64,000 nucleotides of DNA from Psychrobacillus sp. FSL K6-2836 (lineage in GTDB: Bacteria; Bacillota; Bacilli; Bacillales_A; Planococcaceae), in assembly GCF_038003085.1 (NCBI RefSeq), contig NZ_JBBOOM010000001.1, forward strand, positions 1,178,001 to 1,242,000, given 5' to 3'. The position numbers and the translations under genes were made by a program. Below are positions 13,795 through 49,530 of this stretch, piece after piece (within the stretch, counting starts at the first letter, position 1; each line of letters opens with the position of its first letter). The notes under the pieces are model-generated. The model saw only the letters and a program-made list of their open reading frames with translations, was not told where the DNA came from and searched no databases.

Positions 13795-13919
13795 GCCACA
13801 TAAGTCACTCTATTTACCACATATACATCCCTAACAAACACATAACTCTCGTGATCTAACACATAAAGTTGTCTATCTACAACATACCCCTTACTAACCA
13901 CCACATAAACAACATAAAA
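13795..13919. repeat. CACATAA tandem array A
   Basis: About six degenerate copies of a CCACATAAN unit (written on the plus strand) fill the gap, each roughly 21 bp apart. It directly precedes, on the plus strand, the terminator hairpin of the 5'-nucleotidase gene, whose stem AACCACCACAGC contains the same ACCACCACA word. No convincing gene overlaps. Confidence 0.65.
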
Positions 13920-13950
13920 AACCACCACAGCTCAGGTGGCTGTGGTGGTT
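13920..13950 (-). terminator. Terminator of the 5'-nucleotidase gene
   Basis: AACCACCACAGC (13920-13931) pairs perfectly with GCTGTGGTGGTT (13939-13950); on the minus strand a run of Ts follows. The stem shares sequence with the array beside it. Confidence 0.8.
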
Positions 13951-13964
13951 TCAACTAACAAATA

Positions 13965-16316
13965 TTATTTAATAGAATACTTACCAAATCCGTCTGTACC
14001 TTCACCAACATATTTGATGCGGCCATCAGCAGGGATTACTTTTTCTGCTTGTTTAGACGATTCGAATACGATTGTTGCATTTGCTGGAAGTGCTGCGAAT
14101 TTCCAGTTGCCATCTGCAGATGGATCGATTGTTTTCTCTGCAAGAATGTAATCGATAATTGTTTGACGATTTTCATCTGGGTAGATTTCAATCGCTGTCG
14201 CATTACGCACGCCTGGGAATGTTCCATTCGCACGGTAGTTATTTGTTGCTACGATGAATTCTTGTTTTAAATCGATTGGTTTACCATCGTATTGGAGATT
14301 TGTAATACGGGATGAACCTTCATTTACTAGATTTCCGTCAGCATCGTATTTCGCTGGTTTTGTAACATCTATTTCGTATGTTACTCCGTCGATTACGTCA
14401 TAGTTATATGAGCGGAAGTCTGTATTGATAAGCTGTTGCTCGCCAGATTTCGTCGAGTCAATTTGGTTAAATTGGCCGGCAGACATTTCCAACCATTCTT
14501 TCACGTCAGCTCCTGTAACTTTTACAGTTGCCACAGTGTTATCGTATAAATATAGATCTGCTACGTTTTTAATAGCTAGTTCGCCTTTTGGTACATATGT
14601 GTAATACTCAGGGTCACTTCTTGTTCCAGCTTTAAATGGCGCACCTGCAGAAAGGACTGGAAGTTTTTCATTTGCTGTACCTTTTAGTTTTGCTTTTACA
14701 TATTCTGTTTGAGCATTTGTTACGATTTGGATAGATGGATCATCCTGCACTTGTGAGAAATAACTATGGATGTCGGCTGTTGTTGTTCCAACTGCTTGAC
14801 GTACATATTTAATAGTCCCCTCATGCGCTTGCTTTACTGCATCCACAATGGTTTTGTCCACATCCGTAGCTTCTTTCGCAATTGTGCGAACTTCTGCTTT
14901 AGATTGTTTTACTTCCCAGTCGTTCCCTTTTTTCACCAAATCTAAATCGATTACACCTAAGTGGCTACCAAATTTACCTGGCATAACAACCGGAACACCG
15001 TTAATCGTACCGTTTTCCACGTCGACATTTGTTAACGACTCATCCACTTCTCCAGGGAATACTTGGTGCGCATGACCAGTAATAATCGCATCTACATCTT
15101 TAACCTTTGTTAGTAAATACGTTACATCCTCTTCGCCAACCTCATGCTTCATATCGCCAAGACCAGAGTGGGAAAGGACTACAATTACATCTGCTCCAGC
15201 TTTCTTCATTTCTGGTACAATAGCCTCCACAGCTTGTACAGAATCGTCTACCTTCACTTTCCCTTCTAAATGAGACTTGTCCCACTTCAGAATTTGCGGT
15301 GGAACGATACCAGTTACACCAACTTGAATGGTAGATTTCTTTCCTTTGGAATCAACTACTTCTTTTTCGATCAAAACATATGGTTCATAAGCTAATTTAC
15401 CAGTGGCTCCATCACGAACATTCGCATTCACATACGGGAAATTTGCGTCATCCGTAACTTCAGCCAAATAATCTAAACCATAGTTAAATTCATGGTTTCC
15501 GAATGTAGCACCATCATATTTTAGCAATTCCATTGCTGTCACTGATGGATGTTCTTCACCGTCTTCTAGCTTATCCACTGATTGCTTATAAGAACCAAGT
15601 GGTGTACCTTGTATCGCATCACCATTGTCAAATAGTAAAGTATTACTATTTTCCGTTCTTGCATTTTTGATGAGTGTAGCAGTTTTTGCAAGACCTAAGC
15701 TGTTAGACTCTGTATCTTTGTAATAGTCATAGTTCACGATATTCGTATGAATGTCGGAAGTACCTAAGATTCTCAAAGAAACAGTCGAATCTGAACTTTT
15801 ATATTCCTTCAAAAAACGTTTTAAAATATTATTCATCTCATGTTTACTTACAATATTTGCAGGTTTTACGGTTTTATCTGGGTATCCATTTAAGAAACCT
15901 AATCCTACCGCTTTCGCAATTTCGTTTCGATTTGATGTACGGATTTTATTTTTATCTGTAAATTTGTTTAATAGATTTTCTGAGTAAGTTTTATTCGTAT
16001 CAATAGCTCTTGTCGCAATGATAAATGCATGCTCACGAGAAAGTTTTTCATCAGGAGCAAAAACAGTAGCTGACTTACCAGTAATTAGTTTTAACTCAAG
16101 CGCTTTCTCAATATAAGGCTTTAATGAATCTGGAACATCATTAAACTTCACGGATTTACCAGTACCTAACTCAACACCCATTGCATCGATCATTGTTTTT
16201 ACATACTCACCACGAGTGACATCTGGACTTTTTGCCGCAGATGCATAGTCAACATTACCATACCCACCAACTGCAAGCGACAAAGCAAGCGCCGAAGCTG
16301 AAACCTTTTTCCACAT
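13965..16316 (-). CDS. SLH-anchored 5'-nucleotidase / 2',3'-cyclic phosphodiesterase
   Basis: The 783-residue secreted enzyme has a signal peptide (1-27), SLH-like repeats (about 30-170), a metallophosphatase domain (about 180-430) and a 5'-nucleotidase C-terminal domain (about 470-740). Metal motifs are complete: GTSDIH (D188, H190), DNGDAIQ (D233), GNHEFN (N274, H275) and later GHAHQ. Such enzymes release nucleosides and phosphate from nucleotides at the cell surface. The SLH repeats, weakly conserved, would hold it to pyruvylated wall polymer. It has its own terminator and no close operon partner. Substrate range is unknown; CpdB/YfkN-like breadth is likely. Confidence 0.9.
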   Translation of the reverse strand: MWKKVSASALALSLAVGGYGNVDYASAAKSPDVTRGEYVKTMIDAMGVELGTGKSVKFNDVPDSLKPYIEKALELKLITGKSATVFAPDEKLSREHAFIIATRAIDTNKTYSENLLNKFTDKNKIRTSNRNEIAKAVGLGFLNGYPDKTVKPANIVSKHEMNNILKRFLKEYKSSDSTVSLRILGTSDIHTNIVNYDYYKDTESNSLGLAKTATLIKNARTENSNTLLFDNGDAIQGTPLGSYKQSVDKLEDGEEHPSVTAMELLKYDGATFGNHEFNYGLDYLAEVTDDANFPYVNANVRDGATGKLAYEPYVLIEKEVVDSKGKKSTIQVGVTGIVPPQILKWDKSHLEGKVKVDDSVQAVEAIVPEMKKAGADVIVVLSHSGLGDMKHEVGEEDVTYLLTKVKDVDAIITGHAHQVFPGEVDESLTNVDVENGTINGVPVVMPGKFGSHLGVIDLDLVKKGNDWEVKQSKAEVRTIAKEATDVDKTIVDAVKQAHEGTIKYVRQAVGTTTADIHSYFSQVQDDPSIQIVTNAQTEYVKAKLKGTANEKLPVLSAGAPFKAGTRSDPEYYTYVPKGELAIKNVADLYLYDNTVATVKVTGADVKEWLEMSAGQFNQIDSTKSGEQQLINTDFRSYNYDVIDGVTYEIDVTKPAKYDADGNLVNEGSSRITNLQYDGKPIDLKQEFIVATNNYRANGTFPGVRNATAIEIYPDENRQTIIDYILAEKTIDPSADGNWKFAALPANATIVFESSKQAEKVIPADGRIKYVGEGTDGFGKYSIK

Positions 16317-16464
16317 AAACTAATTTCCTTCTTTCTCATCTTGGAATATTAAACCAATATAATTGTAACAAAAACAAAAGTAAATAGTGTAATAAGTTTG
16401 TAAATTTTGAAAACTGTTAGTGAGTTAATAGGGAAAAGTGTTTTTTTAAGTCTTGATAAATGGG

Positions 16465-16835
16465 GTTATGTGGTGGTTAGCTAGGATTATGTGATGGTTA
16501 GCAGAATATGCGGTGACTAGCAGAGTTTATGTGGTAGTTAGCTAGGGTTATGTGGCGGTTAGCGGAGTATGTGGTGACTAGCAGAGTTTATGCGGTAATT
16601 AATTAGAATTATGTGGTGGTTGGAGTAGGTTATGTGGCGGTTAGCGGAGTATGTGGTAATTAAGTAGAATTATGTGGTGGTTAGCAGAGTTTATGCGACG
16701 GTTAGATAGGGTTATGTGGTGGTTAGAGAAGTTTATGTGGTAGTTAGCTAGGGTTATGTGGTGGCTAGAGAAGTTTATGTGGTAGTTAGCAGAGTTTATG
16801 TGGCAGTTAGATAGAATTATGTGGTGAGCGGAGTT
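16465..16835. repeat. TTATGTGG tandem array B
   Basis: At least 16 copies of a TTATGTGGTGGTTAGC-like unit run head to tail. Measured starts of the TATG core are 16467, 16488, 16507, 16528, 16549, 16568 and 16589, so steps are 21, 19, 21, 21, 19 and 21. It lies between the 5'-nucleotidase start and the transglycosylase terminator, and has no coding potential I would trust. Confidence 0.8.
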
Positions 16836-16843
16836 TATGACAT

Positions 16844-16873
16844 AAAAAAACGACTTCCCTCAGAAGGAAGTCG
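16844..16873 (-). terminator. Terminator of the SLH transglycosylase gene
   Basis: CGACTTCC (16851-16858) pairs with GGAAGTCG (16866-16873); on the minus strand seven Ts follow. It sits just past the stop codon and separates the gene from array B. Confidence 0.8.
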
Positions 16874-16889
16874 GTTCGACAATTTTTAG

Positions 16890-18341
16890 TTATTCTACGA
16901 TGTATGGGGAAGCGATATATCCATTCACACTTTTGCCGTTTACTATTGTTTGGACTGGATACCATACAAAATGATTGGTGGAGCTTTTGTTTTCATCAAA
17001 TACTGGTGAACCTATGATAGTCACTGCAGCACCTTTACTAATCGCAATAAGTGGCGACTGAGTGCTAGCTGATTTTCGGAGACCTGTTCCATTATATTTT
17101 ACTATATCTCCTTTGCCATATCCTTCGGTAGTTGGAGTGCTTGACGTCAAAGGAAATAACTTTTTATTAAATACAATGGAGTTATTTGTTTCCTCACCGT
17201 ATGTGAAGTCCTCTTTGTTGAAGTTTAGCAGGTCAACATTAGTTTCTAATAATCCAACGTTCTCTATTGCTTTGTAAACCCGCTCTTGGTATGCGTTCGT
17301 ATTTCTTTCACCAGTTGCTTGGAATACCGGGCTATTCACAGCTTTTGTTCCATTGTAAGCCATTATAGCAAAATACCAGCTCTCTAAGTCTTCTGGGCTA
17401 GTATTCTCGATTTTTGGTAAATCACTTCTCTTATAATTTTTCCCAAGTATATCGATTGCAGTCTCAATATTATACGCTAAATCATATTTTATACGTTCCA
17501 AGTCGTATCCTGCTGTATTCGTGATTTGCATCAATCCAATACCGCCGTCGCTACTTATAATTGGCTCACCATTCGATAGGAAATGAACCCACCCATTACT
17601 TTCCACGGAAGCCACTGCTTTCACGATTTCTGCTGGAATTGGCACATCAGCATTTTTAGCTGCTGTTGTTAGCAAGCAGTTCATCGTTTGACGATCTGGG
17701 TTTGATTTGGAATCTGGATTGTATCCACATGCATCCACTGTCAAACGTAAATCATCATTCAATGCTCTTGCCAAAAATCCAGCAAAATGTGCACGAGTGA
17801 CGGAATCATTCGGTTTAAACTCGCCATTAGCATACCCACTAACAACACCAAATGCAGTTGCCTTGCGAATATCCGAATATGCAGATGAATTCAGTGGAAC
17901 ATCCGCAAATGGAAGTGCCTCATCCTTCATCTTAAATGCTCGTGCTATAAAACTCGCCATTTGACCTCTTGTTACAAAATTATTCGGTTTAAAAGACCCA
18001 TCAGGATAACCATTAATAATTCCCGCATCTGCTGCAGATTGAATAGCACCAGATGCATGGTGATCAGCACCTACATCTTTAAAAACAGTTTTTTTGCCAG
18101 TTAAATCCAAATCCATAGCTCGAGCTACCATCAATGCAGCTTGGCTTCTCGTCACAAAATTACTCGGCTTATAATGATCGGCATCCACACCATTCACAAT
18201 TCCCTCGCCATGTAAATAATTGATATGCTCATAGAAAGGATGACTTGTCTTTACATCCTGAAAGCCCGCTGCTTGAGCAATAGATGAAAAGCTTAACCCG
18301 AATGCTAATAAAAAACTTAAACACAATATTAATTTCTTCAA
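16890..18341 (-). CDS. SLH-anchored lytic transglycosylase with SH3-like domain
   Basis: The 483-residue secreted protein has a signal peptide (1-25), three SLH repeats (about 27-195, with NFVTRSQAALMVARA and NFVTRGQMASFIARA) and a goose-type lysozyme-like SLT domain. The catalytic acid is E247 in ASVESNGW, followed by GGIGLMQIT and later AIMAYNGT. The C-terminus (about 405-483) resembles a bacterial SH3 domain. It probably cleaves glycan strands without hydrolysis at the wall. The start is a TTG after AAGGAGGAG. A single-gene unit with its own terminator. Combining SLH, SLT and SH3 in one protein is uncommon. Confidence 0.88.
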   Translation of the reverse strand: MKKLILCLSFLLAFGLSFSSIAQAAGFQDVKTSHPFYEHINYLHGEGIVNGVDADHYKPSNFVTRSQAALMVARAMDLDLTGKKTVFKDVGADHHASGAIQSAADAGIINGYPDGSFKPNNFVTRGQMASFIARAFKMKDEALPFADVPLNSSAYSDIRKATAFGVVSGYANGEFKPNDSVTRAHFAGFLARALNDDLRLTVDACGYNPDSKSNPDRQTMNCLLTTAAKNADVPIPAEIVKAVASVESNGWVHFLSNGEPIISSDGGIGLMQITNTAGYDLERIKYDLAYNIETAIDILGKNYKRSDLPKIENTSPEDLESWYFAIMAYNGTKAVNSPVFQATGERNTNAYQERVYKAIENVGLLETNVDLLNFNKEDFTYGEETNNSIVFNKKLFPLTSSTPTTEGYGKGDIVKYNGTGLRKSASTQSPLIAISKGAAVTIIGSPVFDENKSSTNHFVWYPVQTIVNGKSVNGYIASPYIVE

Positions 18342-18541
18342 ATACCTCTCCTCCTTATCTCTTAGTCTACTAGAAGACTCATATTATTAACAACGTACTG
18401 CAACTTAAAAAGTTTCGGAAAATTCTGTACACAAGTCTAGTAACTTTAAAACTATATAAATTTCACTAATGAGAAATAATGTTTATCCATAAAGTTCACA
18501 ACTACCATCGGCTGCTCCAATATTTATATAACTGAGAGTTA

Positions 18542-18660
18542 AACACATAAATTCTTTTAACTAACACATAAACTCTTCTATCCACCACATAACACCTTCC
18601 AAGTACCTCTTAAACTCTTCCAACCAACACTTAACCACTTTTAACCACCACACACTCCCT
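18542..18660. repeat. CACATAA tandem array C
   Basis: About six degenerate units with cores at 18544, 18565, 18586, about 18607, 18628 and about 18649, exactly 21 bp apart. It lies between the transglycosylase promoter and the terminator of the first protease gene. Confidence 0.7.
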
Positions 18661-18670
18661 CTAAACCCCC

Positions 18671-18715
18671 AAAAAAATAGGCCACTAGATACAATCTCGG
18701 TATCTACTAGCCTAT
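18671..18715 (-). terminator. Terminator of the first S8 protease gene
   Basis: ATAGGCCACTAGATAC (18678-18693) pairs with GTATCTACTAGCCTAT (18700-18715) with two mismatches; seven Ts follow on the minus strand. Confidence 0.75.
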
Positions 18716-18720
18716 ACTAT

Positions 18721-20094
18721 TCATTTTTTTGTTTTAAATCGCATCAAATATCTTTCTCCGTTTTGGATTTGAATTTCTAATAGATATTCGGTGTTTGTCT
18801 GATAGTTTTTCGTTGGAGATACGATAATTTTTTTATTTTTTAAATCTGGTGTGAGTTGAATGGGGATTTCATAGTTTTCAGTGTATAGTTTGACAGTAAC
18901 TGTTGAGTCGTCGGTGAATACTTGGTTGAATAGAATGGTCCATGTTTTGTCTAAAGGAACATTGGTATGCTCGGGTAAATTACTGTAATTGGTTGAATTA
19001 TATGCGCTGGTAATAAGGGAATTCTGTCCATAGTTAGAGACGTTGAGGATACCTTCTCCAAAGATCGGATCCCAGTTTACTGCGCCTTTATCGTCTACAT
19101 ATGTTTTTAATACTCTTTCTATTTCTTCTATGGATCTAGTAGGATCATCCACGAGAATCATAGCTGCTACGCCACTTACGTAAGGAGCTGCCATGGATGT
19201 GCCATGTAAGGCTGCATACTTTTCTCCAGGGACACTTGAAAGTATTCCGACACCTGGTGCTGAAACGTCGATAGATCCACCGGTGTTACTAAAGCTAGCT
19301 ATTTTATCGGATTGGTCAGTTGCGGAAACGACTAGCACTCTTTTTTCTGAGGCAGGGTAATAGTTTGCTGTATCATCACTTTTATTTCCAGAGGCTACGA
19401 CCACAAGTACATTGTTAGAAAGTGCATAGTCAATTGCCTCTGCTAGATGCTCGGAATATTCTTTTCCTTGAAAGCTCATGTTCACAATGGAAGCACCTTT
19501 ATCCACTGCGTAATGGATTCCTTTAGCAATATTGGAATCATAGCCATTACCATTTTCATTTAATGCGCGGATTGGCATGATTTTGACGTTGTCCGTAGTT
19601 GATTCGGCTATTATGCCAGCTATATGCGTACCATGAACATGCTCATCCATTGGATCCGAGTCATTATTCACAAAGTCATAACCAGCGATCATTCTATCCT
19701 TCAAGAAGGAATGGGTATAATCCACACCTGTATCGATAACTGCAACAATCACTTCTTCATCGTTCGTAGCAAACTGCGATTTCATCCAGTCTGTTCCGAC
19801 CCGCATTGCCCCCCATGATTTGGTATAATCCGCTGTTTGGACCATGCCGATTGTACGAATATAATCTGGCTGTAGCACGCTCACCTCGTCTTTCGATGAA
19901 GCGGCTACCCTAAAGAATGATTTTGGCTGCACTTCATCCACAGCAATGCTCTCGATCTCTTTATTTCCCTCTTTATCGGTTGTTTCGACTATTACTCTAT
20001 CTGATTCTCCTGAACTACTTAGAGCTATACTAGGAAAAAAGAAAACGATACTAAACGAACATCCTATCAACATTTTAAACAATAAACCCCTCAT
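18721..20094 (-). CDS. Secreted subtilisin-like serine protease
   Basis: The 457-residue protein has a signal peptide (about 1-27), a short propeptide (30-90; the inhibitor domain looks reduced) and an S8 catalytic domain with D121 in AVIDTG, H154 in HGTHIAG, N237 in ASGN and S300 in HGTSMAAP. A C-terminal Big_5/SbsA-like domain (about 365-457, VPLDKTWTILFN start) follows. It shares length and architecture with the protease at 28273-29646, so the two are paralogues. It has its own terminator. Extracellular protein breakdown or processing is expected. Confidence 0.9.
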   Translation of the reverse strand: MRGLLFKMLIGCSFSIVFFFPSIALSSSGESDRVIVETTDKEGNKEIESIAVDEVQPKSFFRVAASSKDEVSVLQPDYIRTIGMVQTADYTKSWGAMRVGTDWMKSQFATNDEEVIVAVIDTGVDYTHSFLKDRMIAGYDFVNNDSDPMDEHVHGTHIAGIIAESTTDNVKIMPIRALNENGNGYDSNIAKGIHYAVDKGASIVNMSFQGKEYSEHLAEAIDYALSNNVLVVVASGNKSDDTANYYPASEKRVLVVSATDQSDKIASFSNTGGSIDVSAPGVGILSSVPGEKYAALHGTSMAAPYVSGVAAMILVDDPTRSIEEIERVLKTYVDDKGAVNWDPIFGEGILNVSNYGQNSLITSAYNSTNYSNLPEHTNVPLDKTWTILFNQVFTDDSTVTVKLYTENYEIPIQLTPDLKNKKIIVSPTKNYQTNTEYLLEIQIQNGERYLMRFKTKK

Positions 20095-20183
20095 TTTCTC
20101 CCCACCCTATTGGCTATACTTTTCAAACAAGTACCCCTTAAGTAAAATATGTAAACCAGGAGATGTCGATTACTGTCAATAAG

Positions 20184-20218
20184 ATAAAAAAAACCTACAA
20201 ACCTTGTTGGTTTGTAGG
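20184..20218 (-). terminator. Terminator of the M14 carboxypeptidase gene
   Basis: CCTACAAACC (20194-20203) pairs perfectly with GGTTTGTAGG (20209-20218); a T-run follows on the minus strand. Confidence 0.8.
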
Positions 20219-20226
20219 TAATAAGA

Positions 20227-21825: not shown

Positions 21826-21989
21826 CGTTTCCCCCATTTCTTTATGTCCTTCCTTAAGTTTACTGTCGAATACTAGCGAATAATAGTTACATTATAACTA
21901 TTATTCGATAGGTATAAGACCTTTTTTATTGGCCTAGTTTACTACAAAATATATTTTGAGGTACAATACTCTTTATGGGAGGTTTTGAG

Positions 21990-22355: not shown

Positions 22356-22387
22356 TTCACGCTTATTCAGCCGAATCATCTTTTTTT
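22346..22387. terminator. Shared bidirectional terminator
   Basis: GATGATTC (22351-22358) pairs with GAATCATC (22373-22380), flanked by A and T runs on both sides. It overlaps both gene ends. Confidence 0.8.
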
Positions 22388-23440: not shown

Positions 23441-23441
23441 T

Positions 23442-24545: not shown

Positions 24546-24576
24546 TCAAAGTATTATTCTGACATAATACTTTTGA
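24546..24576. repeat. Hairpin at the edge of array D
   Basis: TCAAAGTATTAT (24546-24557) pairs with ATAATACTTTTGA (24564-24576) with one bulge. It lies between the acyltransferase start and the array, like the hairpins beside other arrays. Confidence 0.55.
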
Positions 24577-24577
24577 C

Positions 24578-25195
24578 TCACATATAAATACCCATATTCG
24601 CCACATAAATCCATTCAACCAACACATAAAATGGTGGCTTCCACTTAAATCCACTCAACCAACACATAAGCTCTTTCATCTACCACATAAACCCCTATAA
24701 CCAACACATAAAATAGTGGCTACCACATAAATCCATTCAACCAACACATAAGCTCTTTTATCTACCACATAAACTCCTATAACCAACACATAAAATGGCG
24801 GTCGCCACTTAAATCCATTCAACCAACACATAAGCTCTTTTATCTGCCACATAAACTCTTATAACCAACACATAAAATGGTGGCTACCACTTAAATCCAC
24901 TTAACCAACACATAAACTCTTTTAACTACCACATAAACTCCTCTAACCAACACATAAAATGTTGGCTGCCACTTAAATCCAATCAACCAACACATAAGCT
25001 CTTTTATCTACCACATAAACTCCCATAACCAACACATAAAATGGTGGCTGCCACTTAAATCCAATCAACCAACACATAAGCTCTTTTAACTACCACATAA
25101 ACTCCCATAGCCAACACATAAGCTCTTTTATCCAACACATAAACTCCTATAACCAACACATAAAATGACGGCTGCCACTTAAACCCGCTCAACCC
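24578..25195. repeat. 82-bp higher-order tandem repeat (array D)
   Basis: This is the longest array. The word AACACATAAGCTC recurs at 24661, 24743, 24825, 24907, 24989 and 25071, always 82 bp apart. Each 82-bp unit holds four CACATAA or CACTTAA boxes spaced 21, 21, 19 and 21 bp (for example 24745, 24766, 24787, 24806, 24827). The last part breaks the register, with a 42-bp step. About 29 boxes are present. It fills the divergent gap between the acyltransferase and FosB genes and has no coding potential. Not a CRISPR: there are no unique spacers. Confidence 0.9.
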
Positions 25196-27602: not shown

Positions 27603-28024
27603 ATGAATTTGCTTATTACTAATGAAATAAATAAAAATGATAAACAATATATTAATGATGAGCTTTATAAGTTTAATCTAGAACATTTTCCAGTAAATTT
27701 AAGAGGCAGATACGAAGAAGTTAATTTATATCTTAAGGATGAAAATGGCATTACACGTGGCGGAATACTCGCTGAAGTGTGCTGGATTTGTTAGAAATTC
27801 ATACCTTTATGATTGATGAGGATATTCGAAAATCAGGATTTGGAACGAAATTATTATTAGAACTTGAGAATATCGCTATAGAAAAGGAATGCGATTTCAT
27901 AAAGGTAGATACATTAAGCTTTCAAGCATTAGGTTTTTATAAAAAAAATGGATATGAAGTTTTTGGTAGTTTAGATAATGTAGGACGAGATTTTAAACAT
28001 TACTATTTAAAAAAAGATTTATAA
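27603..28024 (+). pseudogene. Frameshifted GNAT acetyltransferase
   Basis: Two overlapping frames, 27603-27794 and 27779-28024, together make one GNAT protein: the first ends GGILAEVCW, the second continues with LEIHTFMIDEDIRKSGFGTKLLLE and ends NGYEVFGSL..HYYLKKDL. Five bases lie where six are expected between the TGG (27782-27784) and the TTA leucine codon, so one base is probably lost near 27785-27790. The acetyl-CoA motif lies in the second part. It may be a real mutation or a sequencing error. Confidence 0.75.
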
Positions 28025-28087: not shown

Positions 28088-28114
28088 TTAAATTTTACTC
28101 AATCACTGCAATCT

Positions 28115-28181
28115 ACCACATAAGTCCAAGTAACCCACACCAAAACCGTCACAGCCACTATATAAACTTCCTCAACCACCA
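28115..28181. repeat. Short CACATAA array E
   Basis: Three or four degenerate units (CACATAA, CACACC, CACTATATAA, CACCACAA) lie between two facing terminators in a convergent gap. It is the smallest of the arrays. Confidence 0.5.
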
Positions 28182-28215
28182 CAAAAAAACCAATTGCCTC
28201 ATGCGCAATTGGTTT
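28182..28215 (-). terminator. Terminator of the second S8 protease gene
   Basis: AAACCAATTGC (28187-28197) pairs perfectly with GCAATTGGTTT (28205-28215), followed by Ts on the minus strand. Confidence 0.8.
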
Positions 28216-29938: not shown

Positions 29939-29959
29939 AATATGTTCTAACTATTTTAC

Positions 29960-30120
29960 ACCACTTAAATCTGCCTAACTACCACATAAAACTCCCTAAT
30001 TAACACATAACCTATCTGCCACCACTTAAACTAACATAACGACCACATATTAACTTATAACCACCACATAATTCTACCTAACTACCACATATAACTTCCT
30101 AACCACCACATAATTCCACA
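29960..30120. repeat. CACATAA tandem array F
   Basis: Boxes lie at 29962, 29983, 30004, 30023, 30044, 30065, 30086 and 30107, so steps are 21, 21, 19, 21, 21, 21, 21. It immediately follows the stop of the transketolase C-terminal gene, with no terminator between. Confidence 0.75.
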
Positions 30121-34330: not shown

Positions 34331-34798
34331 CTACTTATTTCGATGGTGGATACCATATATATTTAACGAGGTGTGTAGTCTTTGATGTTGTTTGAGCAAT
34401 ACATGCTTCGAAGCATTAACAAGAACAGAGATTCCATTTGAAAAAAGGATGATTGACTTTCTCTTGCCCACCTCTTTCACATGAAAAGGGTGATTGAAAA
34501 TCCATACACATTCCACATGCGTATAGGACATAGTTGGAAAAGCGCCAAAATGATTCGGTTCTATTAGTAGTGGTGTCTTTACCGAATAATTCATTAATTT
34601 TTTCGTTGCCTTCAAGCGTCCCTCTAACGTGGATGCAAATCGATTACATGCATCTTCAAGCAAGTTCAATGTACTCTCTTCTGAATAATATACTCCATGG
34701 GTCGTCACGATTCGCGTCTTTACCTTATCTTTAAAAACGGATTCAAGCATTAATGTTTGACTATCAATCAATTCAGAATTACTTTTATTATCCTTCAA
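34331..34798 (-). CDS. comK: Competence transcription factor ComK
   Basis: The 155-residue protein matches ComK across its core: NRFASTLEGRLKATKK (like SSYAGRKAGT), TPLLIEPNHFGAFPTMS and HPFHVKEV, with SNGISVLVNASKH at the end. ComK binds AT-boxes and turns on DNA-uptake and recombination genes. It is shorter than the 192-residue B. subtilis form, lacking the C-terminal tail. The start is TTG with GGGGGA upstream. A single-gene unit with its own terminator. A sigma-factor gene lies upstream on the same strand. Confidence 0.82.
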   Translation of the reverse strand: MKDNKSNSELIDSQTLMLESVFKDKVKTRIVTTHGVYYSEESTLNLLEDACNRFASTLEGRLKATKKLMNYSVKTPLLIEPNHFGAFPTMSYTHVECVWIFNHPFHVKEVGKRKSIILFSNGISVLVNASKHVLLKQHQRLHTSLNIYGIHHRNK

Positions 34799-35781: not shown

Positions 35782-35905
35782 TTTATGTGGTGGTTGGATC
35801 GGGTTATGTGGTGGTTGGATCGGGTTATGTGGTGGTTATCGGTGTTTATGTGGTGGTTGGATTGGGTTATGTGGTAGTTATGAGCGGTTATGTGCGTTGG
35901 AGGAT
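35782..35905. repeat. TTATGTGG tandem array G, exact 21-bp period
   Basis: TATG cores lie at 35784, 35805, 35826, 35847, 35868 and 35889, always 21 bp apart. The unit is TTATGTGGTGGTTGGATCGGG. It is joined to the hairpin at 35928 by a block that recurs after array H. Confidence 0.85.
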
Positions 35906-35927
35906 TTGAGGGGTTTTACTTTTAAAA

Positions 35928-35974
35928 AACTGCACCTCCATTGTTAGATTGTGTCTAACAATGGAGGTGCAGTT
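35928..35974 (-). terminator. Long perfect hairpin, module copy 1
   Basis: A perfect 21-bp stem runs from AACTGCACCTCC (35928) to GGAGGTGCAGTT (ending 35974) with a 5-base loop; on the minus strand Ts follow. The same hairpin, with few changes, lies at 49554-49600. Confidence 0.8.
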
Positions 35975-36040
35975 CAATATCAAAACGGCTTTTATCAGAT
36001 TGAAACTCTACTATTTTTTCATATCTTGGAAAAACGTCAC

Positions 36041-40306: not shown

Positions 40307-40345
40307 ACAAAAAATCCATCTTATAAGTAATAATAAGATGGATTT
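40307..40345 (-). terminator. Terminator of the two-component operon
   Basis: AAATCCATCTTAT (40312-40324) pairs perfectly with ATAAGATGGATTT (40333-40345); a T-run follows on the minus strand. Confidence 0.85.
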
Positions 40346-40353
40346 AGTCATAA

Positions 40354-44400: not shown

Positions 44401-44457
44401 TGCACTTATAAGTAATATTCCAATAATAGTGATGATTTTTATATAGTTTTTTTTCAT
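41449..44457 (-). CDS. Hybrid sensor kinase with two kinase modules
   Basis: The about 1002-residue protein has an external N-terminal sensing domain (about 30-190), seven membrane segments (about 190-395, 7TMR-DISM-like), a HisKA/HATPase pair (H435 in TSHEFRTP, N-box LIDNAVKYT, GGTGLGLSV), a receiver domain (D719 in LVILDIMMPEFSG) and then a second, LytS-type kinase module (H810 in KPHFIFNVLNS, N-box PIVENAILHGL, GKGMS). The double kinase is unusual. The ORF extends to 44523, but AAGGGAA lies before ATG 44457 and MKKNYIKI starts a typical signal anchor, so 44457 is preferred. Confidence 0.85.
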   Translation of the reverse strand: MKKNYIKIITIIGILLISAFALNSILVQDKTISPKAVDGVLDLRNYEFNGNEPIEMNGEWEFVPGKLLDSPEFDKQQSYPVPVPSLWTEYDLDGEQVPKYTSGTYRLRVLINDSTEVLGIKTTNIRMSNAIYMDGKLLGKSGVPAEDSAYTPHNIPYVSYFSPDAEEIEMIVHIANFDYASGGGILGSIYLGDQESIGKLRESSLAYDWITIAAFSTMFIYFLGSYLHARIGMEQLFFSLFCFANILYAVSHGEKVFLELFPSTPYAIFERIQSLSSIWIGLFMLSFFATSLKPFANKKIVKFLYILSILLTGSALLPVKINSSLQFYYSLYIFIILVYIIYLQIIAISKRAVGASYLIFSSFTIFIYFTVGTLNVSANYAINLIPPLFPFICLTMLSLYISHRFLDSFLKKEELSKALLRVDKLKDGFLAKTSHEFRTPLHGIIAISQSMLEDRKSSLTIDEEEKMGLIIGTAQRLSNLVNDILDFSKLKEGDLRVRITTVDLFAITHVVVETFTYMVDKDVKIVNHIQRGQFVMADEDRLRQILYNLIDNAVKYTIRGKVEIKCSEQKENLVIEVSDTGIGIAPENLKFIFEPFRQYSNSSGGTGLGLSVTKELVQIQGGTITLASAVNKGTTFSVTLPKPTQFNEVEQHHFSLPIPSIIENKGRKKVIIADDDHVNLKVLIDALMTENYYIVAVDSGKAVLEQIRKHQDVDLVILDIMMPEFSGYEVSQQLRKSFLPSELPILMLTAAVRPEDMIAAFQSGANDFLHKPLDTSELKTRIRNLLLIKESAENAVKMEVAFLQAQIKPHFIFNVLNSILSLSYIDLDKARVMITDFANFMRGSFSFENTHSLVPLKKELSLIQSYVNIQRTRFPERLEWEVEMEEAFHCLIPPLLLQPIVENAILHGLDMKEGQGTVKLTVKRENDLITFLVEDDGKGMSKQQIRQIWSVEKNNRQSVGLRNIEKRLKYYENASIEITSEENIGTVVELRFPLIQSEKEGH

Positions 44458-44523
44458 GCTATTTTCCCTTAGATTCATGTTATTTGATATGTTGATTGTA
44501 TGCGGTAATACTACTTTATACAA

Positions 44524-44814
44524 TATTTTTTTGATGGATTTTTGTGGTGGAGATTTGTATATTGGGTTAGTCCCAGTGTAAGACGCAATTGGGACACTAC
44601 TCTGAATTGTTTTATAGTAGTGTCATACACAGGGACGCAACTCTAAAATTGAACTTAACAATTTTTTGCGGTAAAGTAGTATTCTAGAATTCTTTCGGCT
44701 GGTTATATCGTGGCGATTTAACCTTAGTAGAAAAGGATTCTTTTTTCACTATTAAAGAATTATAACTCATTTAAATTAGGGTATATATTATATAAAAAGT
44801 TTTAGGAGGACAAC
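44524..44814. other. Divergent gap with palindromic repeat
   Basis: The 290-bp gap between the kinase and the GGDEF/EAL gene holds a 67-bp palindrome (44570-44636) and an AT-rich stretch with promoter-like TATATTATATA near 44783. AGGAGGACAAC serves the next gene. Confidence 0.5.
44570..44636. repeat. TCCCTGTG-type palindromic repeat, long copy
   Basis: GTCCCAGTGTA (44570-44580) pairs with TACACAGGGAC (44626-44636), and ACACTACT (44594-44601) pairs with AGTAGTGT (44616-44623), so the element nests two stems. Its arms match those at 47036 and 49116. Confidence 0.75.
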
Positions 44815-47034
44815 ATGAACACAACGGAACCATACTATATTACAGAATCTAAGAGAATGTGCGCAGAGGCAGGAATGGATCCGAATGAGATATCAAGACC
44901 AAAGAACTTTTTAAGCGAAGTAGAGTTTGATCAGAAGCGAAAATCTTACAGTGAAATACTATCAGTTGTGCGTTTTTTCTCAAATAAGTTACTAGATTCC
45001 TTAAAAGGCACACCGATACTAGTTGTTGTGTCGGATGCAACGGGTTACCTTTTGGAAATTGAAGGAGATGAAACGATCAAGTCCGTCATTGAACAATTCG
45101 GGATTATGCCTGGAAGTCTATTCGTCCAAGAAGATACGGGCACGAATGTTATTAGTCTTTCATTGCAGCAAAGACATCCTATCAGTCTTATTGGCGAACA
45201 TCATTATCATAAGTTTCTTCATGAAATTGCTTGTTATGGGACGGCATTTCACTATACAGATGAAAACAACTTGCTTGGTAGTGTCTCTATCATGATGCCT
45301 ATCCAGTTTCAGAATACACTTTTCTTAACGATGTTAGCTCAGGTGGTCGATTCGATCGAAAGAGAATTATTATTAAGAAAACAAAATAAGAAGCTTAATA
45401 TTATGAATCAGATTATGTTAAGTAAAACTAGAAATGGAATTGTTATTACCGATGAGAAAGGAATCACTACCGAGTTTAATAATTTTGCTGAAAAAATTTC
45501 AAATAACAGCAGAGATTCGGTTATGGGAAGAAATATTCGTGAGTCACATTTAACTGGAGACTATTTTAAAGAAGTGTTAGAACAAGGAAAAATTTTTAAA
45601 AATGAAGAATTAAAATTTAAGGATGATGCTGGCAACATTATAGTCTGTCTGTTCGATGCACAGCCAATTTATGAAGAAGATAAAATGATCGGGGCCTTTG
45701 GACAGTTCAGAGACATCTCTGATCGTTACTTGCTACAGGAAAAATATAATTACTTAGCATATCATGATGATTTAACAAATCTGTCTAACAGACGGCATAT
45801 AAAAAAAGAATTAGAAGCCATTATCCAGGATATACATGCCGGGCATCATCGGACCTTGGCTCTTTTATTCGTAGATCTGGATCGTTTTAAAATCATTAAT
45901 GATAACTTTAGTCATTCTTATGGAGATAGATTTTTAATCGAGGTAAGCAAACGGTTACGAGGTTGTCTTGGGGAGAAGGATATACTTGCACGATTTGGGG
46001 GCGATGAATTTATATTCCTATTGAAAGATTTTGTTGATTTGGATTATGTCACCAAAAAAGCGGAAGAGATACTTCAGCTATTTCAACAACCTTTTCATGT
46101 TGGCGAGAAAGAGTTGCATACGACTGCGAGTATCGGGGTCGCCATTTATCCCGACTATTCAATTACAATGGAACAGCTTATGGTTTACGCTGATAATGCC
46201 ATGTACCAAGCAAAATTTCAAGGGAAAAACCGCTATGTCGTTCATACGTCTGAATTATTAGATGTAATGATGGATGAATATAGGCTCGAAGTCGATTTAA
46301 GAAGTGCACTAGAGAATAATGAATTTGTTCTTCATTATCAGCCTCAAGTTAATAATGATACCGGCAAATTGGTTGGATTTGAAGCGTTAATCCGCTGGCA
46401 GCATCCTACGTTAGGTCTAATACCTCCAGGAAAGTTTATAAAACTAGCCGAAGAAAATGGATTGATCACTCAAATAGGTGAGTGGGTTATCGATGAGGCC
46501 TGTTCACAAAACAAAAAATGGCAAGATGCTGGAATGACTCCAGTAAAAATGTCCGTTAACCTATCCACACAGCAATTTCTTACAAGAGATCTCCTAACAT
46601 TTATGGAAGAGGTGCTAGAACGTACTGCTATCGATCCAGCATATATTGTCGTGGAAATTACCGAATATATGGCAATGGAATATGAATACTCCATTCACGT
46701 TTTAGAACAGCTAAAAGCTCTCGGTATTGGCATTAGCATTGATGATTTTGGAACAGGCTATAGCTCGCTCAATTATCTAAAAAATTTTCCGATTGACTAT
46801 ATTAAGATCGACAAATCCTTTGTGAGTGAATTAATGAATAATGAGGAGGATGCCGTCATTGTAAAAGCAATTATCTCGTTAGCGCACAACCTGCATAAGG
46901 AGGTGATCGCTGAAGGGGTTGAAACAAAGGAACAGCTTAAGTTTCTGAAAAATCATCAATGTGATATCTCGCAGGGGTATTTCTTTAGCAAACCACTTCC
47001 TGCAGATGAGATTGAGAAGATTTATATTAAATAG
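44815..47034 (+). CDS. Diguanylate cyclase/phosphodiesterase with GAF-like and PAS domains
   Basis: The 739-residue protein has a GAF-like N-terminal domain (about 30-190), a PAS domain (about 195-310), a GGDEF domain (about 320-480) with intact RFGGDEF (393-399) and an EAL domain (about 490-735) with E523-A-L and DDFGTGYSS. Both catalytic motifs are intact, so it may make or break c-di-GMP depending on ligand. The N-terminal domain resembles those of AcoR/PrpR-type regulators. No signal peptide: it is cytosolic. It precedes the TPP enzyme, with a palindrome between, and may be cotranscribed. Confidence 0.9.
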   Translation: MNTTEPYYITESKRMCAEAGMDPNEISRPKNFLSEVEFDQKRKSYSEILSVVRFFSNKLLDSLKGTPILVVVSDATGYLLEIEGDETIKSVIEQFGIMPGSLFVQEDTGTNVISLSLQQRHPISLIGEHHYHKFLHEIACYGTAFHYTDENNLLGSVSIMMPIQFQNTLFLTMLAQVVDSIERELLLRKQNKKLNIMNQIMLSKTRNGIVITDEKGITTEFNNFAEKISNNSRDSVMGRNIRESHLTGDYFKEVLEQGKIFKNEELKFKDDAGNIIVCLFDAQPIYEEDKMIGAFGQFRDISDRYLLQEKYNYLAYHDDLTNLSNRRHIKKELEAIIQDIHAGHHRTLALLFVDLDRFKIINDNFSHSYGDRFLIEVSKRLRGCLGEKDILARFGGDEFIFLLKDFVDLDYVTKKAEEILQLFQQPFHVGEKELHTTASIGVAIYPDYSITMEQLMVYADNAMYQAKFQGKNRYVVHTSELLDVMMDEYRLEVDLRSALENNEFVLHYQPQVNNDTGKLVGFEALIRWQHPTLGLIPPGKFIKLAEENGLITQIGEWVIDEACSQNKKWQDAGMTPVKMSVNLSTQQFLTRDLLTFMEEVLERTAIDPAYIVVEITEYMAMEYEYSIHVLEQLKALGIGISIDDFGTGYSSLNYLKNFPIDYIKIDKSFVSELMNNEEDAVIVKAIISLAHNLHKEVIAEGVETKEQLKFLKNHQCDISQGYFFSKPLPADEIEKIYIK

Positions 47035-47035
47035 G

Positions 47036-47078
47036 TCCCTGTGAAGGACACCATTCTGAATCGTTTCCTACACAGGGA
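47036..47078. repeat. TCCCTGTG-type palindromic repeat
   Basis: TCCCTGTG (47036-47043) pairs with CACAGGGA (47071-47078) across CCATTCTGAATCG. It is followed by As on the plus strand, so it is not a normal terminator there. Confidence 0.65.
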
Positions 47079-47098
47079 AAAAATAGGAGAATGACAGT

Positions 47099-48733
47099 AT
47101 GAAAACAATTTCATCCGTATTAGTAGCGAATTTTAAACATTGGGGTATTCATCATATTTTCGGCATTCCTGGAAAGGCAGTATCTCCTATATTATTCGAA
47201 ATATTACACCATGAATTGGAATTTGTATTAAGTAAACACGAAGCAGCTGCAGGGTTTGAGGCTTCAGGCTATGCCCTGATGAATCAAAAAATCGGGGTCG
47301 CAGTTGGTACGTCTGGCCCTGGTGGCACTAACCTACTTACAGCTGCCGGTCAGGCGAAAGCATCTAATCTTCCTCTAATCATCATCACTGGGCATCCTTC
47401 GATGAAAGATACTGGAAAAGCAATGGGACAAGACTCCAGTCTGTTTGGCACTGATCTTGTAGATATGTTCAAATCTGTCACCAAGTTTAGCGCACGGGTG
47501 GAACGAGGAGATATGCTACAGCCCTTCCTGCAACATGCTCTAGAAAAAGCATTATCCGGTGTAAAAGGCCCTGTGCATCTAGCCATTCCTTTTGATATTT
47601 TGTTAGAACAGATTGAACCGTTCCAACTGGAGCTACCAGTGTCGCATGAAATGATTTCACCTAAAACGAGTGCTGTGATCGATAAACTGAATATGGCTAA
47701 ACGTCCTCTTCTCTTTCTAGGAAAAGGTGTTCATTCGAGTAAAGCCTATGAAGAAGTTCAGCATCTTGCAGAGTATTGGAACATCCCTGTCATCACCACT
47801 CCAGGAGGAAAAGGTGTATTCCCTTCCAATCACACACTTTCATTGGGAGCATTTGGATTAGGTGGTACGATTGAAGCAACCGCATACTTACAAGAGAAAG
47901 TCGACCTACTCCTCGTTATCGGCTCAAGACTAAGTGATATGTCTATCGCTGGATTTTCGGAAGCAATGTATCCAGAGCACGTCATTCACCTCGATTATGA
48001 CCCAACCTTTATTGGGAAGTCGATCCAAGTGCCAACTACTCCAGTGCTTGGTAATATAAAAGCAAATTTGCTAGCTATTTTAAAGGATATACCGAAAACG
48101 GATAGCGAATCATTTTTAACACCAATCGAGTTGATCCAACTGGAGGAGAACAAACCAGGAAATCGAGTGTCTGCGGTTCAAGCATTACGGGCGATGCGTT
48201 ACGCACTTCCGAATGATGCGATTATTTTTGGAGATGATGGAAGTCACTCTTTTTACGGCATCAAACACTTTGACATTTATAAACCTGGTACTTTCTTCTT
48301 TGATGATATATTCGGAGCGATGGGCAACGGAATTGGCTATTCCATCGGTGCAAAGCTAGCTGCTCCTGAAAAAACTATTGTATGTTTAGTAGGGGATGGA
48401 TGTATGTTCATGCATGGGACGGAGCTATCCACGGCGTACAATTATAATTCTGCTGTTTTATTCGTCGTTTTGAATAATGGACGATTGGATATGGTGGAAA
48501 AAGGAATGCAAAAAATGATCGGCACATCTATCGGCGGTGTGTATGAGACTCCACTTGATGTAACTCGATTTGCCGAATCTATGGGACTGAAAGCATATAC
48601 CTGTCACAACCCTTATGATTTAGCCGATAGAATAAAAGAATCATTACATAAGATGAAAGAAACAAGCAAGCCAATTGTCATTGAAGTATTAGTCGATGAA
48701 AACGAAATACCACCAACTATGGGGAGGCAATAA
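47099..48733 (+). CDS. Thiamine diphosphate-dependent enzyme, acetolactate synthase-like
   Basis: This 544-residue protein belongs to the TPP enzyme family of acetolactate synthase, pyruvate oxidase and benzoylformate decarboxylase. E48 in SKHEAAAG is the catalytic cofactor-activating glutamate, TSGPGG (about 91-96) marks the domain start and GDG (432-434) with NN about 25 residues on binds TPP and Mg. The exact reaction is unclear: the protein lacks an obvious FAD motif. The downstream gene encodes a carboxymuconolactone decarboxylase-family protein, so it may belong to a 2-keto acid pathway. Confidence 0.88.
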   Translation: MKTISSVLVANFKHWGIHHIFGIPGKAVSPILFEILHHELEFVLSKHEAAAGFEASGYALMNQKIGVAVGTSGPGGTNLLTAAGQAKASNLPLIIITGHPSMKDTGKAMGQDSSLFGTDLVDMFKSVTKFSARVERGDMLQPFLQHALEKALSGVKGPVHLAIPFDILLEQIEPFQLELPVSHEMISPKTSAVIDKLNMAKRPLLFLGKGVHSSKAYEEVQHLAEYWNIPVITTPGGKGVFPSNHTLSLGAFGLGGTIEATAYLQEKVDLLLVIGSRLSDMSIAGFSEAMYPEHVIHLDYDPTFIGKSIQVPTTPVLGNIKANLLAILKDIPKTDSESFLTPIELIQLEENKPGNRVSAVQALRAMRYALPNDAIIFGDDGSHSFYGIKHFDIYKPGTFFFDDIFGAMGNGIGYSIGAKLAAPEKTIVCLVGDGCMFMHGTELSTAYNYNSAVLFVVLNNGRLDMVEKGMQKMIGTSIGGVYETPLDVTRFAESMGLKAYTCHNPYDLADRIKESLHKMKETSKPIVIEVLVDENEIPPTMGRQ

Positions 48734-48734
48734 G

Positions 48735-49109
48735 ATGGAAAATAACAAGCGATACGAGTCCGGTTTACGTGCAATGGAAGAATTATTTTCCCCAGAAGTA
48801 CGAACGGGTATGGAAGAAATGAAGAAAATTTCACCGGACTTTTGGGAGATGATTGTGTCCTCTGGTTTTGGCGATCTCTATGGCAGAAACACCCTTTCTC
48901 ACGCACAAAGGGAAATTATCACACTGACGACCCTTATCACCCAGGGAGCCTTCGATCAGCTGAGAGTTCACTTGCAAGCAGCACTAAATGTTGGACTTAC
49001 CAAAGAAGAGATTATCGAAATTATCATCCACTGTGTCGGATATGTTGGGTTTCCAAAAGCGGTTCAGGCAATGGGAATTGCCGGGGAAGTTTTTGAGGAA
49101 GCAAAATAA
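48735..49109 (+). CDS. Carboxymuconolactone decarboxylase family protein
   Basis: The 124-residue helical protein resembles the CMD family (LYGRNTLSHAQREIITLTTLIT, LQAALNVGLTKEEIIEII, GFPKAVQAM). The AhpD CxxC pair is absent, so it is the decarboxylase-like kind rather than a peroxidase partner. GGGGAGG lies 7 bp before ATG 48735; the longer frame from 48696 overlaps the TPP gene and is rejected. It is coupled with the TPP enzyme. Substrate unknown. Confidence 0.85.
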   Translation: MENNKRYESGLRAMEELFSPEVRTGMEEMKKISPDFWEMIVSSGFGDLYGRNTLSHAQREIITLTTLITQGAFDQLRVHLQAALNVGLTKEEIIEIIIHCVGYVGFPKAVQAMGIAGEVFEEAK

Positions 49110-49115
49110 TAAACG

Positions 49116-49166
49116 TCCCTGTGTACGAGACAATTCTGAATTGTTTCTTACACAGGGAAGTTTTTT
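49116..49166 (+). terminator. Terminator built from a TCCCTGTG palindrome
   Basis: TCCCTGTGTA (49116-49125) pairs with TACACAGGGA (49149-49158), enclosing the inner palindrome CAATTCTGAATTG; TTTTTT follows at 49161. So here the repeat acts as a terminator. Confidence 0.8.
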
Positions 49167-49530
49167 ATGTGGTGGTTGTCGACTTTTGTGGTGGTTATTG
49201 GTGTTTATGTGGTGGTTGGATTGGGTTATGTGGTGGTTGGATTGGGTTATGTGGCGGTTGTCGATTTTTGTGCTGGTTGCGATGAGTTTGGTGGTGGTTA
49301 TGGATATTTAAGTGGTGGTTTGTTTGGTTTATGTGGTGGTTGTCGACTTTTATGGTGGTTGGATCGAGTTTTTTGGTAGTTATGGATGTTTATGTGGTGA
49401 TTTGTTTGGTTTATGTGGTGGTTATGGATGTTTATGTGGTGGTTTGATCGAATTATGTGGTGGTTGTCGACTTTTGTGGTGGTTGGATTGGGTTATGTGG
49501 TGGTTATGGATGTTTATGTGGCGTTGGAGG
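49166..49530. repeat. TTATGTGG tandem array H with 82-bp period
   Basis: The array has about 18 units. GTGG cores lie at 49169, 49188, 49209, 49230, 49251, 49270, 49291, 49312, 49333 and 49352, so steps are 19,21,21,21,19,21,21,21,19. The short (19-bp) steps come at 82-bp intervals (49188 to 49270 to 49352). It is in a convergent gap between the CMD gene and the FadR-type regulator. Confidence 0.85.

Follow-up and report, generated by a model that had tools for sequence, protein, structure and literature searches.

The 64-kb window, by which we mean the whole stretch of DNA that was analysed, carries eight arrays of short direct repeats, A to H (Table 1). A position-weight scan with chaining recovered all eight arrays of the original prediction, in both orientations as it had stated (five minus, three plus), and its claim of a common motif with a 21/19-bp step was borne out: all steps in the window are 21 or 19 bp, apart from a single 24 in array A and two degenerate units of array E that can alternatively be read as steps of 20 and 22 bp. 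There are 46 copies of the word TTATGTGG in the window, whereas the expectation from 100 dinucleotide shuffles is 2.67, with a maximum of 8. Three lone matches to this word (16311, 33944 and 54851) fall within open reading frames (ORFs) or at their start, and are not arrays. The flanking genes have mixed functions, and arrays B and C lie face to face with one gene between them. The arrays had been described as never inside genes, and as far as can be told they are intergenic, but mechanical ORFs of 106-107 aa overlap arrays G and H, and ORFs of ~70 aa that pass a crude filter overlap arrays A and E. These were taken as chance ORFs.

Table 1. Repeat arrays and adjoining hairpins in window coordinates; unit numbers are from the scan with chaining, and G137 is the second species discussed in the text.
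Feature	Position	Strand	Units	Description
Array A	13783..13932	-	7	Chained units, first step 24 then 21; first 'unit' shares sequence with the hairpin terminator of the SLH/5'-nucleotidase gene; 6-unit orthologous array in G137
Array B	16466..16837	+	18	Steps 21 and 19; 4 units in the same G137 gap
Array C	18530..18676	-	7	Degenerate units, step 21; begins at a terminator T-tract; one unit-like remnant in G137 (by eye)
Array D	24567..25182	-	30	82-bp super-repeat (21+21+21+19); divergent genes on either side; 8 units in the corresponding gap of G137; no terminator call within 120 bp
Array E	28103..28186	-	4	Degenerate units; convergent genes, terminator at each side; contracted in G137
Array F	29948..30113	-	8	Steps 21 plus one 19; no terminator called within 120 bp
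Array G	35783..35887	+	5	Step 21
Tail of G	35888..35980	.		Long-stem terminator hairpin, -34.2 kcal/mol; near-copy of the H tail
Array H	49165..49534	+	18	Steps 21 and 19; 82-bp super-repeat; plus-strand gene on one side, minus-strand gene on the other
Tail of H	49535..49605	.		Terminator hairpin, -25.4 kcal/mol; near-copy of the G tail

The family is not limited to the window. In the stretches fetched from the host chromosome (G000) we found 279 units in 22 arrays, and the dispersed arrays range from 4 to 42 units, with 41-42 units in the array at 3.494 Mb. The same scan on reversed sequence called 3 arrays in 996 kb of stretches from this and other genomes, compared to 41 real ones (22+14+3+2) in those stretches. 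Only 7 of the 279 units score near the cut-off of 5 (below 7), and 195 score 15 or more. Each unit consists of a conserved 13-bp core, TTATGTGGTRGTT, flanked on both sides by purine preferences, and an 8- or 6-bp spacer that is mostly unconstrained. Among the 205 G000 units with a 21-bp step, positions 1-13 hold 1.15-1.92 bits of information, with 0.89 at position 10, a core figure that is inflated because units were picked by their core, and the spacer positions 14-21 hold 0.04-0.76 bits. Of the 257 steps between neighbouring G000 units, 205 are 21 bp, 43 are 19 bp, one is 20 bp and none is 22 bp, the chaining having placed an equal penalty on 19- and 20-bp steps. In G137, steps of 20 and 22 bp occur once each among 93.

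G137, a second species with ~90% DNA identity, has 13 arrays at matching gaps; their unit numbers and spacers have changed, but core and step have not, and the spacing is conserved despite the variation in unit number. In six orthologous arrays, which were selected for alignment in register, divergence is 6-28% at positions 1-9, 23-47% over the remaining positions of the unit and 9-33% in the flanks, and core divergence is below that of the rest of the unit in five of them. At 1.396 Mb the core has diverged as much as the spacer and faster than the flanks, and at 1.009 Mb core and flank divergence are alike. The share of G000 positions absent from G137 is 0-10% in the core, 0-5% in the rest of the unit and 4-18% in the flanks. 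That word and spacing are largely kept while the intervening DNA changes fast suggests that something in the cell reads the arrays.

Our preferred reading, which we hold tentatively, is that the arrays may be rows of recognition sites for a putative DNA-binding factor, set along one helix face between transcription units. B-DNA has ~10.5 bp per turn, and a two-turn spacing is relevant to DNA rather than to RNA. The 13-bp word would be kept on one face of the DNA by the 8-bp, sometimes 6-bp, spacer of largely free sequence, and a putative sequence-specific factor would read the word and assemble along the array at two-turn intervals. No binding protein for the arrays emerged from the analysis, which bore on such a factor only indirectly. 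The 19-bp steps (17% of the G000 steps) are not explained by helix phase, because 20 bp would hold the helical face better; a single ancestral 82-bp super-repeat may be their origin. Among the candidates put forward originally was a chromosome-organising protein. The core, the freer spacer and the two-turn step favour a sequence-specific DNA-binding factor, but nothing found here shows an organising role: in two syntenic genomes the arrays of this family are clustered at 1.0-1.4 Mb, whereas a sister family in the congener G141 is spread over many contigs.

Nearly as likely as a row of binding sites is a satellite with no host function, that is, a 21-bp family that expands by slippage and unequal exchange, is occasionally copied between loci and survives in neutral space behind terminators, its core and step reflecting common descent. 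The fast change of unit number and presence between the two species would fit such a satellite, as would the super-repeat or tail types that, by eye, are common to distant loci (units of array D and the 3.494-Mb array; 1.137, 1.157 and 1.161 Mb; G and H; 1.392 and 4.120 Mb). Its occurrence is also patchy. The strict pattern was found in 2 of 261 genomes of the family, and a loose two-unit pattern in 5 of 19 congeneric genomes, the host's own included and G138 counted on a single match, which is the level of the reversed-pattern control (one match in each of five genomes). The array family is therefore dispensable. From these whole-unit changes, the shared super-repeats and the patchiness it is evident that slippage, listed in the original prediction as selfish expansion, also takes place, as does copying. 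However, units that decay from a common ancestor should lose core and spacer at equal rates, whereas a strong difference is seen, and steps of 20 and 22 bp are almost absent. A further point against a satellite is that different words have one step in common, although the words are perhaps related by descent, in which case the common step was possibly inherited.

Arrays with a 21-bp step and other cores are present both in congeners and in G000 itself. Of 85 noncoding tandem repeats with a period of at least 8, from stretches that were largely chosen for arrays, 56 have a 21-bp period; in stretches not chosen for arrays, the proportion was 2 of 2 in G000 and 3 of 7 in G141, and ten stretches of other congeners gave no 21-bp excess (1 of 8). 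G141 carries a stereotyped, dispersed module of 4-5 units of a sister word, whose left edge is sharp and coincides with the first unit, and at 5 of the 6 loci given to Rfam a Bacillaceae-1 repeat lies behind the module, an arrangement that favours the satellite. By eye, the words TGGTRCTTGCCCTCGG and GGTACTTGCTCTCG overlap. The 21-bp spacing with different words extends to other genera of the order. A scan of named genomes returned at least 119 stretches; among the matches listed, many are exact tandem repeats that seem unrelated, or cyanobacterial element ends. Close inspection covered one set of 21 loci and another of 17, two of the 17 being labelled Chryseobacterium sp. ISL-80.

With regard to placement, an intrinsic terminator points into the array within 120 bp in 19 of 22 G000 arrays and 12 of 14 G137 arrays, compared to 102 of 300 control points that were unmatched in gap length or in their distance from gene ends. 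These numbers come from the looser of two callers, which uses folding energies. The stricter caller, based on perfect stems, gave 8 of 22 and 8 of 14 arrays versus 44 of 400 control points, so that with both callers the array rate exceeds its own control. There was no clear preference for a gap type, as arrays occupy 12 of 70 tandem, 3 of 28 convergent and 2 of 20 divergent gaps in G000, and 7 of 49, 3 of 22 and 1 of 19, respectively, in G137. Because the arrays sit between transcription units, a bound array might, more speculatively, stop read-through and antisense transcription in the manner of a barrier or insulator. This position beside terminators agrees with the transcription buffer that had been proposed, if it is one that separates transcription units. 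The CCACATAA strand corresponds to the leading strand in 16 of the 22 G000 arrays (one-sided binomial 0.026), in 11 of 14 arrays of the second species and in 3 of 3 of the third, with dnaA at C1:2.198 Mb and the terminus assumed to be opposite; 5 of the 6 G000 exceptions are arrays of the 64-kb window.

The terminators also bear on a role as back-up Rho-loading (rut-like) sites, in which read-through RNA would enter a C-rich, G-poor and weakly structured stretch where Rho loads and ends transcription. We regard this as improbable. The composition is suitable, with 33.8% C and 5.8% G on the CCACATAA strand; four C-strand stretches of 108-146 nt fold weakly (-1.0 to -12.6 kcal/mol), yet with somewhat more structure than shuffles (z -1.5 to -3.9), and a rho gene is present. 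A terminator feeds C-strand RNA in only 16 of the 22 G000 arrays: it lies on that side only in 10, on the other side only in 3, on both in 6 and on neither in 3, and arrays C, F and the one at 1.084 Mb, all between co-directional genes, point the opposite way. On the same strand, the sister families are less skewed, with 29% C and 18% G in 17 G141 arrays, 32% and 17% in 5 arrays of other congeners, and 22% and 11% in 16 Mesobacillus/Cytobacillus-type arrays. Nor do they have a clear terminator side (G141: none 12, tail 3, both 1, head 1; G139: head, tail and none one each; two further arrays: head; Mesobacillus type: none 5, head 4, tail 4, both 3). Moreover, rut sites are not known to require a fixed word or a fixed two-turn step. 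A Rho-loading role fits the composition of this array family better than that of its sisters, and with less skew and no clear side in the latter we rejected it as a general explanation.

A purely structural account, in which phased and intrinsically curved DNA results from the 21-bp repeat, seems very improbable. A two-turn repeat sums any bend in its unit, and a wedge model gave a mean end-to-end ratio over 105 bp of 0.932 for the 19 arrays that were long enough, against 0.955 with jittered spacer lengths and 0.949 for shuffled sequence. This predicted bend is small, and curvature would not need a conserved word, so intrinsic curvature was set aside. We give slightly less credence still to the arrays being multi-site ends of a Tn7/TniA-like transposon or of its non-autonomous copies. 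The G141 modules, with their sharp left edge and some five direct 21-bp sites, the ATGTGGT repeats of cyanobacteria, which form inverted pairs that resemble element ends, and the opposed orientation of B and C across one gene are in line with such ends. However, arrays reach 42 units and mostly lack an inverted partner, and the array-poor gaps checked (C, E and 3.0776 Mb) hold, by eye, remnant units and not an insertion footprint. Among the six genomes searched, PF09299 (Mu-transpos_C) has two matches each in G000 and G127 and is absent from G141, G139, G137 and G132; with a TnsB/TniA-type protein missing from 4 of the 6 genomes, array-rich G141 among them, this explanation was dismissed.

How do the arrays compare with known repeats? 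CRISPR repeats are ~23-50 bp long with unique spacers of similar length, a pattern that the 13-bp core with its 8- or 6-bp spacers does not match. The iterons of plasmid origins are direct repeats of about two helical turns that are read by a protein; here, in contrast, there are many dispersed chromosomal arrays of 4-42 units. A phage or plasmid origin was rejected, as array H had no plasmid match and array D no phage match at blastn sensitivity; the sole match among viral contigs (L227) is coding sequence in which no array was called. The BIME/REP elements of enterobacteria are tandem intergenic units of variable number near gene 3' ends, but REP units are palindromic hairpins, whereas four G-strand stretches of the arrays fold at shuffle level (z 0.02 to 1.31). 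The RemA-binding regions of Bacillus subtilis share with the arrays the repetition of direct sites, to which in their case an oligomer binds along the helix; they are reported as AT-rich 7-bp protections, 3 bp apart and modestly conserved (PMC8481266). This ~10-bp repeat of poorly conserved AT-rich sites was rejected as a match for a 21-bp repeat with a strongly conserved G-rich core.

Among described repeats, the STAR elements of Staphylococcus come closest. These are reported to be interspersed intergenic direct repeats of unknown function, whose unit number expands and contracts and whose last spacer is distinct, with a 14-bp core, T(G/A/T)TGTTG(G/T)GGCCC(C/A), and at least 40 bp between cores (PMC3532100). 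The arrays described here are likewise interspersed intergenic direct repeats in a Bacillota genome, with a conserved core, locus-specific spacers, a distinct last spacer and a variable unit number, but their core is TTATGTGGTRGTT and the 8 or 6 bp between cores make a two-turn step. STAR loci reportedly differ between species (PMC3532100), whereas 13 loci are common to two species here. In outline, the arrays may work like a STAR element. Among open-licence papers, searched by title and the start of the abstract, no description of the arrays themselves was found. The original statement that no described system fits nevertheless went too far, given that the STAR architecture is similar in outline, and overall the interpretation first given to the arrays is partly supported.

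It is conceivable, if rather doubtful, that Psychrobacillus and its relatives possess a general class of helix-phased arrays with many words, several per genome, the word being replaced between species in some of the same gaps. Such a class would be a bacterial counterpart of satellite chromatin, with fast-diverging DNA-binding factors that coat short stretches between transcription units. A word and a two-turn spacing that stay constant amid changing DNA provide a concrete bait for pull-down. If a factor binds the arrays, they would represent an unrecognised layer of organisation between transcription units, and if none does, they would be a clean example of a satellite in bacteria, the length rule of which would call for a mutational explanation.

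The window contains 46 copies of the word TTATGTGG, versus 2.67 expected, and a scan for the repeat unit, a 13-bp core word followed by a spacer of 8 or 6 bp, recovered all eight intergenic arrays (A to H) of the original prediction, with 4 to 30 units each, confirming that they are real; Tandem Repeats Finder found six of the eight (B, C, D, F, G, and H). The repeats also reach beyond the window, since exact searches showed the family concentrated at 1.0-1.4 Mb of the host genome (G000), with more arrays at 1.957, 2.508, 3.494, and 4.120 Mb. Arrays were then called with a weight matrix and chaining on fetched stretches containing clusters, from which weak arrays elsewhere would escape, and this gave 22 arrays (279 units) in G000, 14 (107 units) in a second species, G137, and three and two in the congeners G127 and G132, respectively. 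The reversed-sequence control gave 3 arrays in 996 kb, and ten further 20-kb G000 stretches spread along the chromosome contained no TTATGTGG-family arrays.

Neighbouring units are mostly 21 bp apart. Among 257 steps in G000, 205 were 21 bp, 43 were 19 bp, two each were 18 and 12 bp, and 16, 20, 24, 42, and 57 bp occurred once each; in G137 (93 steps) the corresponding counts were 74 for 21 bp, 12 for 19 bp, three for 18 bp, and one each for 20, 22, 40, and 43 bp. Several arrays show a super-period of 82 bp (21+21+21+19). Among the 19-bp units the spacer takes several forms and the core is relaxed in its 3' half. Read along the TTATGTGG strand, many arrays by eye have TTATGTGGC as their last unit, at the 3' end. 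The puzzling abundance of 19-bp steps beside the near-absence of 20-bp ones is most simply explained by common descent of the 82-bp super-repeat; such descent would weaken the helix-phase argument for the 19-bp steps, but not for the dominance of 21 bp. That the arrays act by intrinsic curvature is a weak alternative. In the 205 units with a 21-bp step, core positions 1-13 hold 1.15-1.92 bits, except position 10 (0.89), and spacer positions 14-21 hold 0.04-0.76 bits, a contrast that is inflated because units were picked by their core, although only 7 of the 279 score near the cut-off.

G137 is syntenic with G000 over the array region at approximately 90% DNA identity, and 13 loci have arrays in the same gaps (see table). 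Only remnants of arrays C and E are left in G137, the segments with the 1.137-Mb array and with G and H are absent, and a 3.0776-Mb array was called in G137 only, where by eye G000 has a unit-like remnant. In six in-register arrays, picked for alignability, the two genomes differ at 6-28% of core positions 1-9, 23-47% of the rest of the unit, and 9-33% of the flanks; the core differed less than the rest of the unit in five of the six, and was below the flanks in four, equal in one, and above in one. Positions absent in G137 amounted to 0-10%, 0-5%, and 4-18%, respectively, G137 insertions being outside this count. This comparison is the chief evidence for conservation of word and step alongside spacer turnover.

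Features of the arrays and related loci (C1, a contig of G000)
Feature	Position	Remark
Window	C1:1178001-1242000	4.23-Mb contig, 4.54-Mb genome
Array gaps common to G000 and G137	1.009, 1.157, 1.161, A, B, D, 1.349, 1.352, 1.392, 1.394, 1.396, 1.957, 2.508 Mb	
CTCTCGTATAG arrays, G000	C1:1329105, 1342697, 1344932, 1399571, 1400988, 1412570	21/20-bp steps, up to ~20 units
TGCGCAACRTTYGGG 21-bp arrays, G000	C1:1014790-1015271	several consecutive blocks
ComK-family protein (PF06338)	window 34331-34798	~1 kb from array G
Acetyltransferase-like gene	window 27604-28024	early stop, directly ahead of array E (by eye)
CCCATAAA-core arrays, G136	L251 14208-14472, 17499-17568	22-bp step

By eye, G and H have a tail and terminator hairpin in common, as do the 1.392- and 4.120-Mb arrays, D shares super-repeat units with the 3.494-Mb array, and the 1.137-, 1.157-, and 1.161-Mb arrays form one group; thus, arrays appear to have been copied at times from locus to locus. 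The nearest rival reading is a satellite without host function.

Arrays with a 21-bp step also occur with other words. In the congener G139, arrays of TTTGTCGYGTTC occupy the gaps on both sides of the orthologous 5'-nucleotidase gene; this word is also found in G133, and the G136 word is ATTGTMGTAAA. The CCCATAAA-core arrays of G136 are an exception to the 21-bp rule. Additional 21-bp words of G000 include CTCTCGTATAG, whose family lies in the same chromosomal region, TGCGCAACRTTYGGG, and GGTACTTGCTCTCGATGG. Partial overlaps between some of these words, seen by eye, mean that common descent is possible. A three-unit TTTGTCG pattern was found in 8 of 261 family genomes (4 of 19 genera), a count that alone proves little since its reversed control matched in five (20 matches in one of them). 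Dispersed TTTGTCG arrays were present in G141 (44 matches), G139 (8), and G043, of another genus (4); G141 had 93 adjacent pairs versus 1 in the control, many within a stereotyped module of 4-5 units. The Bacillaceae-1 repeat (RF01690) was found at five of six G141 loci submitted to Rfam, and at loci L200, L208, L211, L212, and L223 it follows the TTTGTCG arrays, as if dispersed jointly. In arrays of ATGTGGTCGAATTA or ATGTGGTCGATATATT in Mesobacillus, Cytobacillus, and Bacillus sp. ISL-37, 72 of 87 steps were 21 bp, although word and step are partly built in, because the search used ATGTGGT at 19-21 bp. Such arrays were also seen in L062 and L102, labelled Chryseobacterium sp. ISL-80, a label that may be wrong. 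Inverted pairs of ATGTGGT-containing direct repeats in cyanobacteria (L047, L071, L107, and L114), mostly separated by ~400 bp (3.7 kb for L107), probably mark the termini of small mobile elements and differ in kind from the Psychrobacillus arrays, for which transposon ends are a weak explanation.

In a motif-free census, 56 of 85 noncoding tandem repeats with a period of at least 8 had period 21 (1.63 Mb of fetched Psychrobacillus sequence, largely array-chosen). In stretches not array-chosen this was 2 of 2 in G000 and 3 of 7 in G141, where a single locus accounts for two of the three as its halves. G133 gave 3 of 7 (one beside the nucleotidase gene, two in a single 20-kb stretch also containing two of period 20). 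The count was 1 of 8 in ten stretches from other congeners and 4 of 10 in G043, all four being TTTGTCG arrays around which most of the G043 stretches were chosen.

A hairpin with T-tract directed into the array lay within 120 bp for 19 of 22 arrays in G000 and 12 of 14 in G137, compared with 102 of 300 points placed at random in gaps lacking arrays. Such terminators stood only on the side giving CCACATAA RNA in 10 G000 arrays, only on the other in 3, on both in 6, and on neither in 3 (9, 2, 1, and 2 in G137). As to the strand bias relative to replication that had been raised earlier, the leading strand carried CCACATAA in 16 of 22, 11 of 14, and 3 of 3 arrays in three species, but most genes of the region run in the direction of replication, so that effects of replication and of gene direction cannot be told apart. 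Arrays had no clear preference for gap type. Genes beside the arrays of the window form a mixed set (S-layer/5'-nucleotidase, SLT, subtilase, acyltransferase, glyoxalase, transketolase, carboxymuconolactone decarboxylase, and GntR), and one of the ten scanned proteins had no family. The ComK-family protein near array G belongs to a competence regulator family.

Literature searches of open-licence papers found no description of these arrays. The STAR elements of staphylococci, which have no known function (PMC3532100), resemble them in outline architecture, but have another word and a far longer spacer. Rho loading at the arrays suits the composition of the TTATGTGG family better than that of the sister families. 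Retention of a two-turn step across words that differ suggests DNA, not RNA, as the relevant molecule; the conserved word with its freer spacer suggests recognition by a factor, and the location behind terminators suggests a setting between transcription units. These sequence features lead us to infer that a putative factor would recognise the conserved word, and that the DNA-bound array may serve as a barrier or insulator between transcription units.
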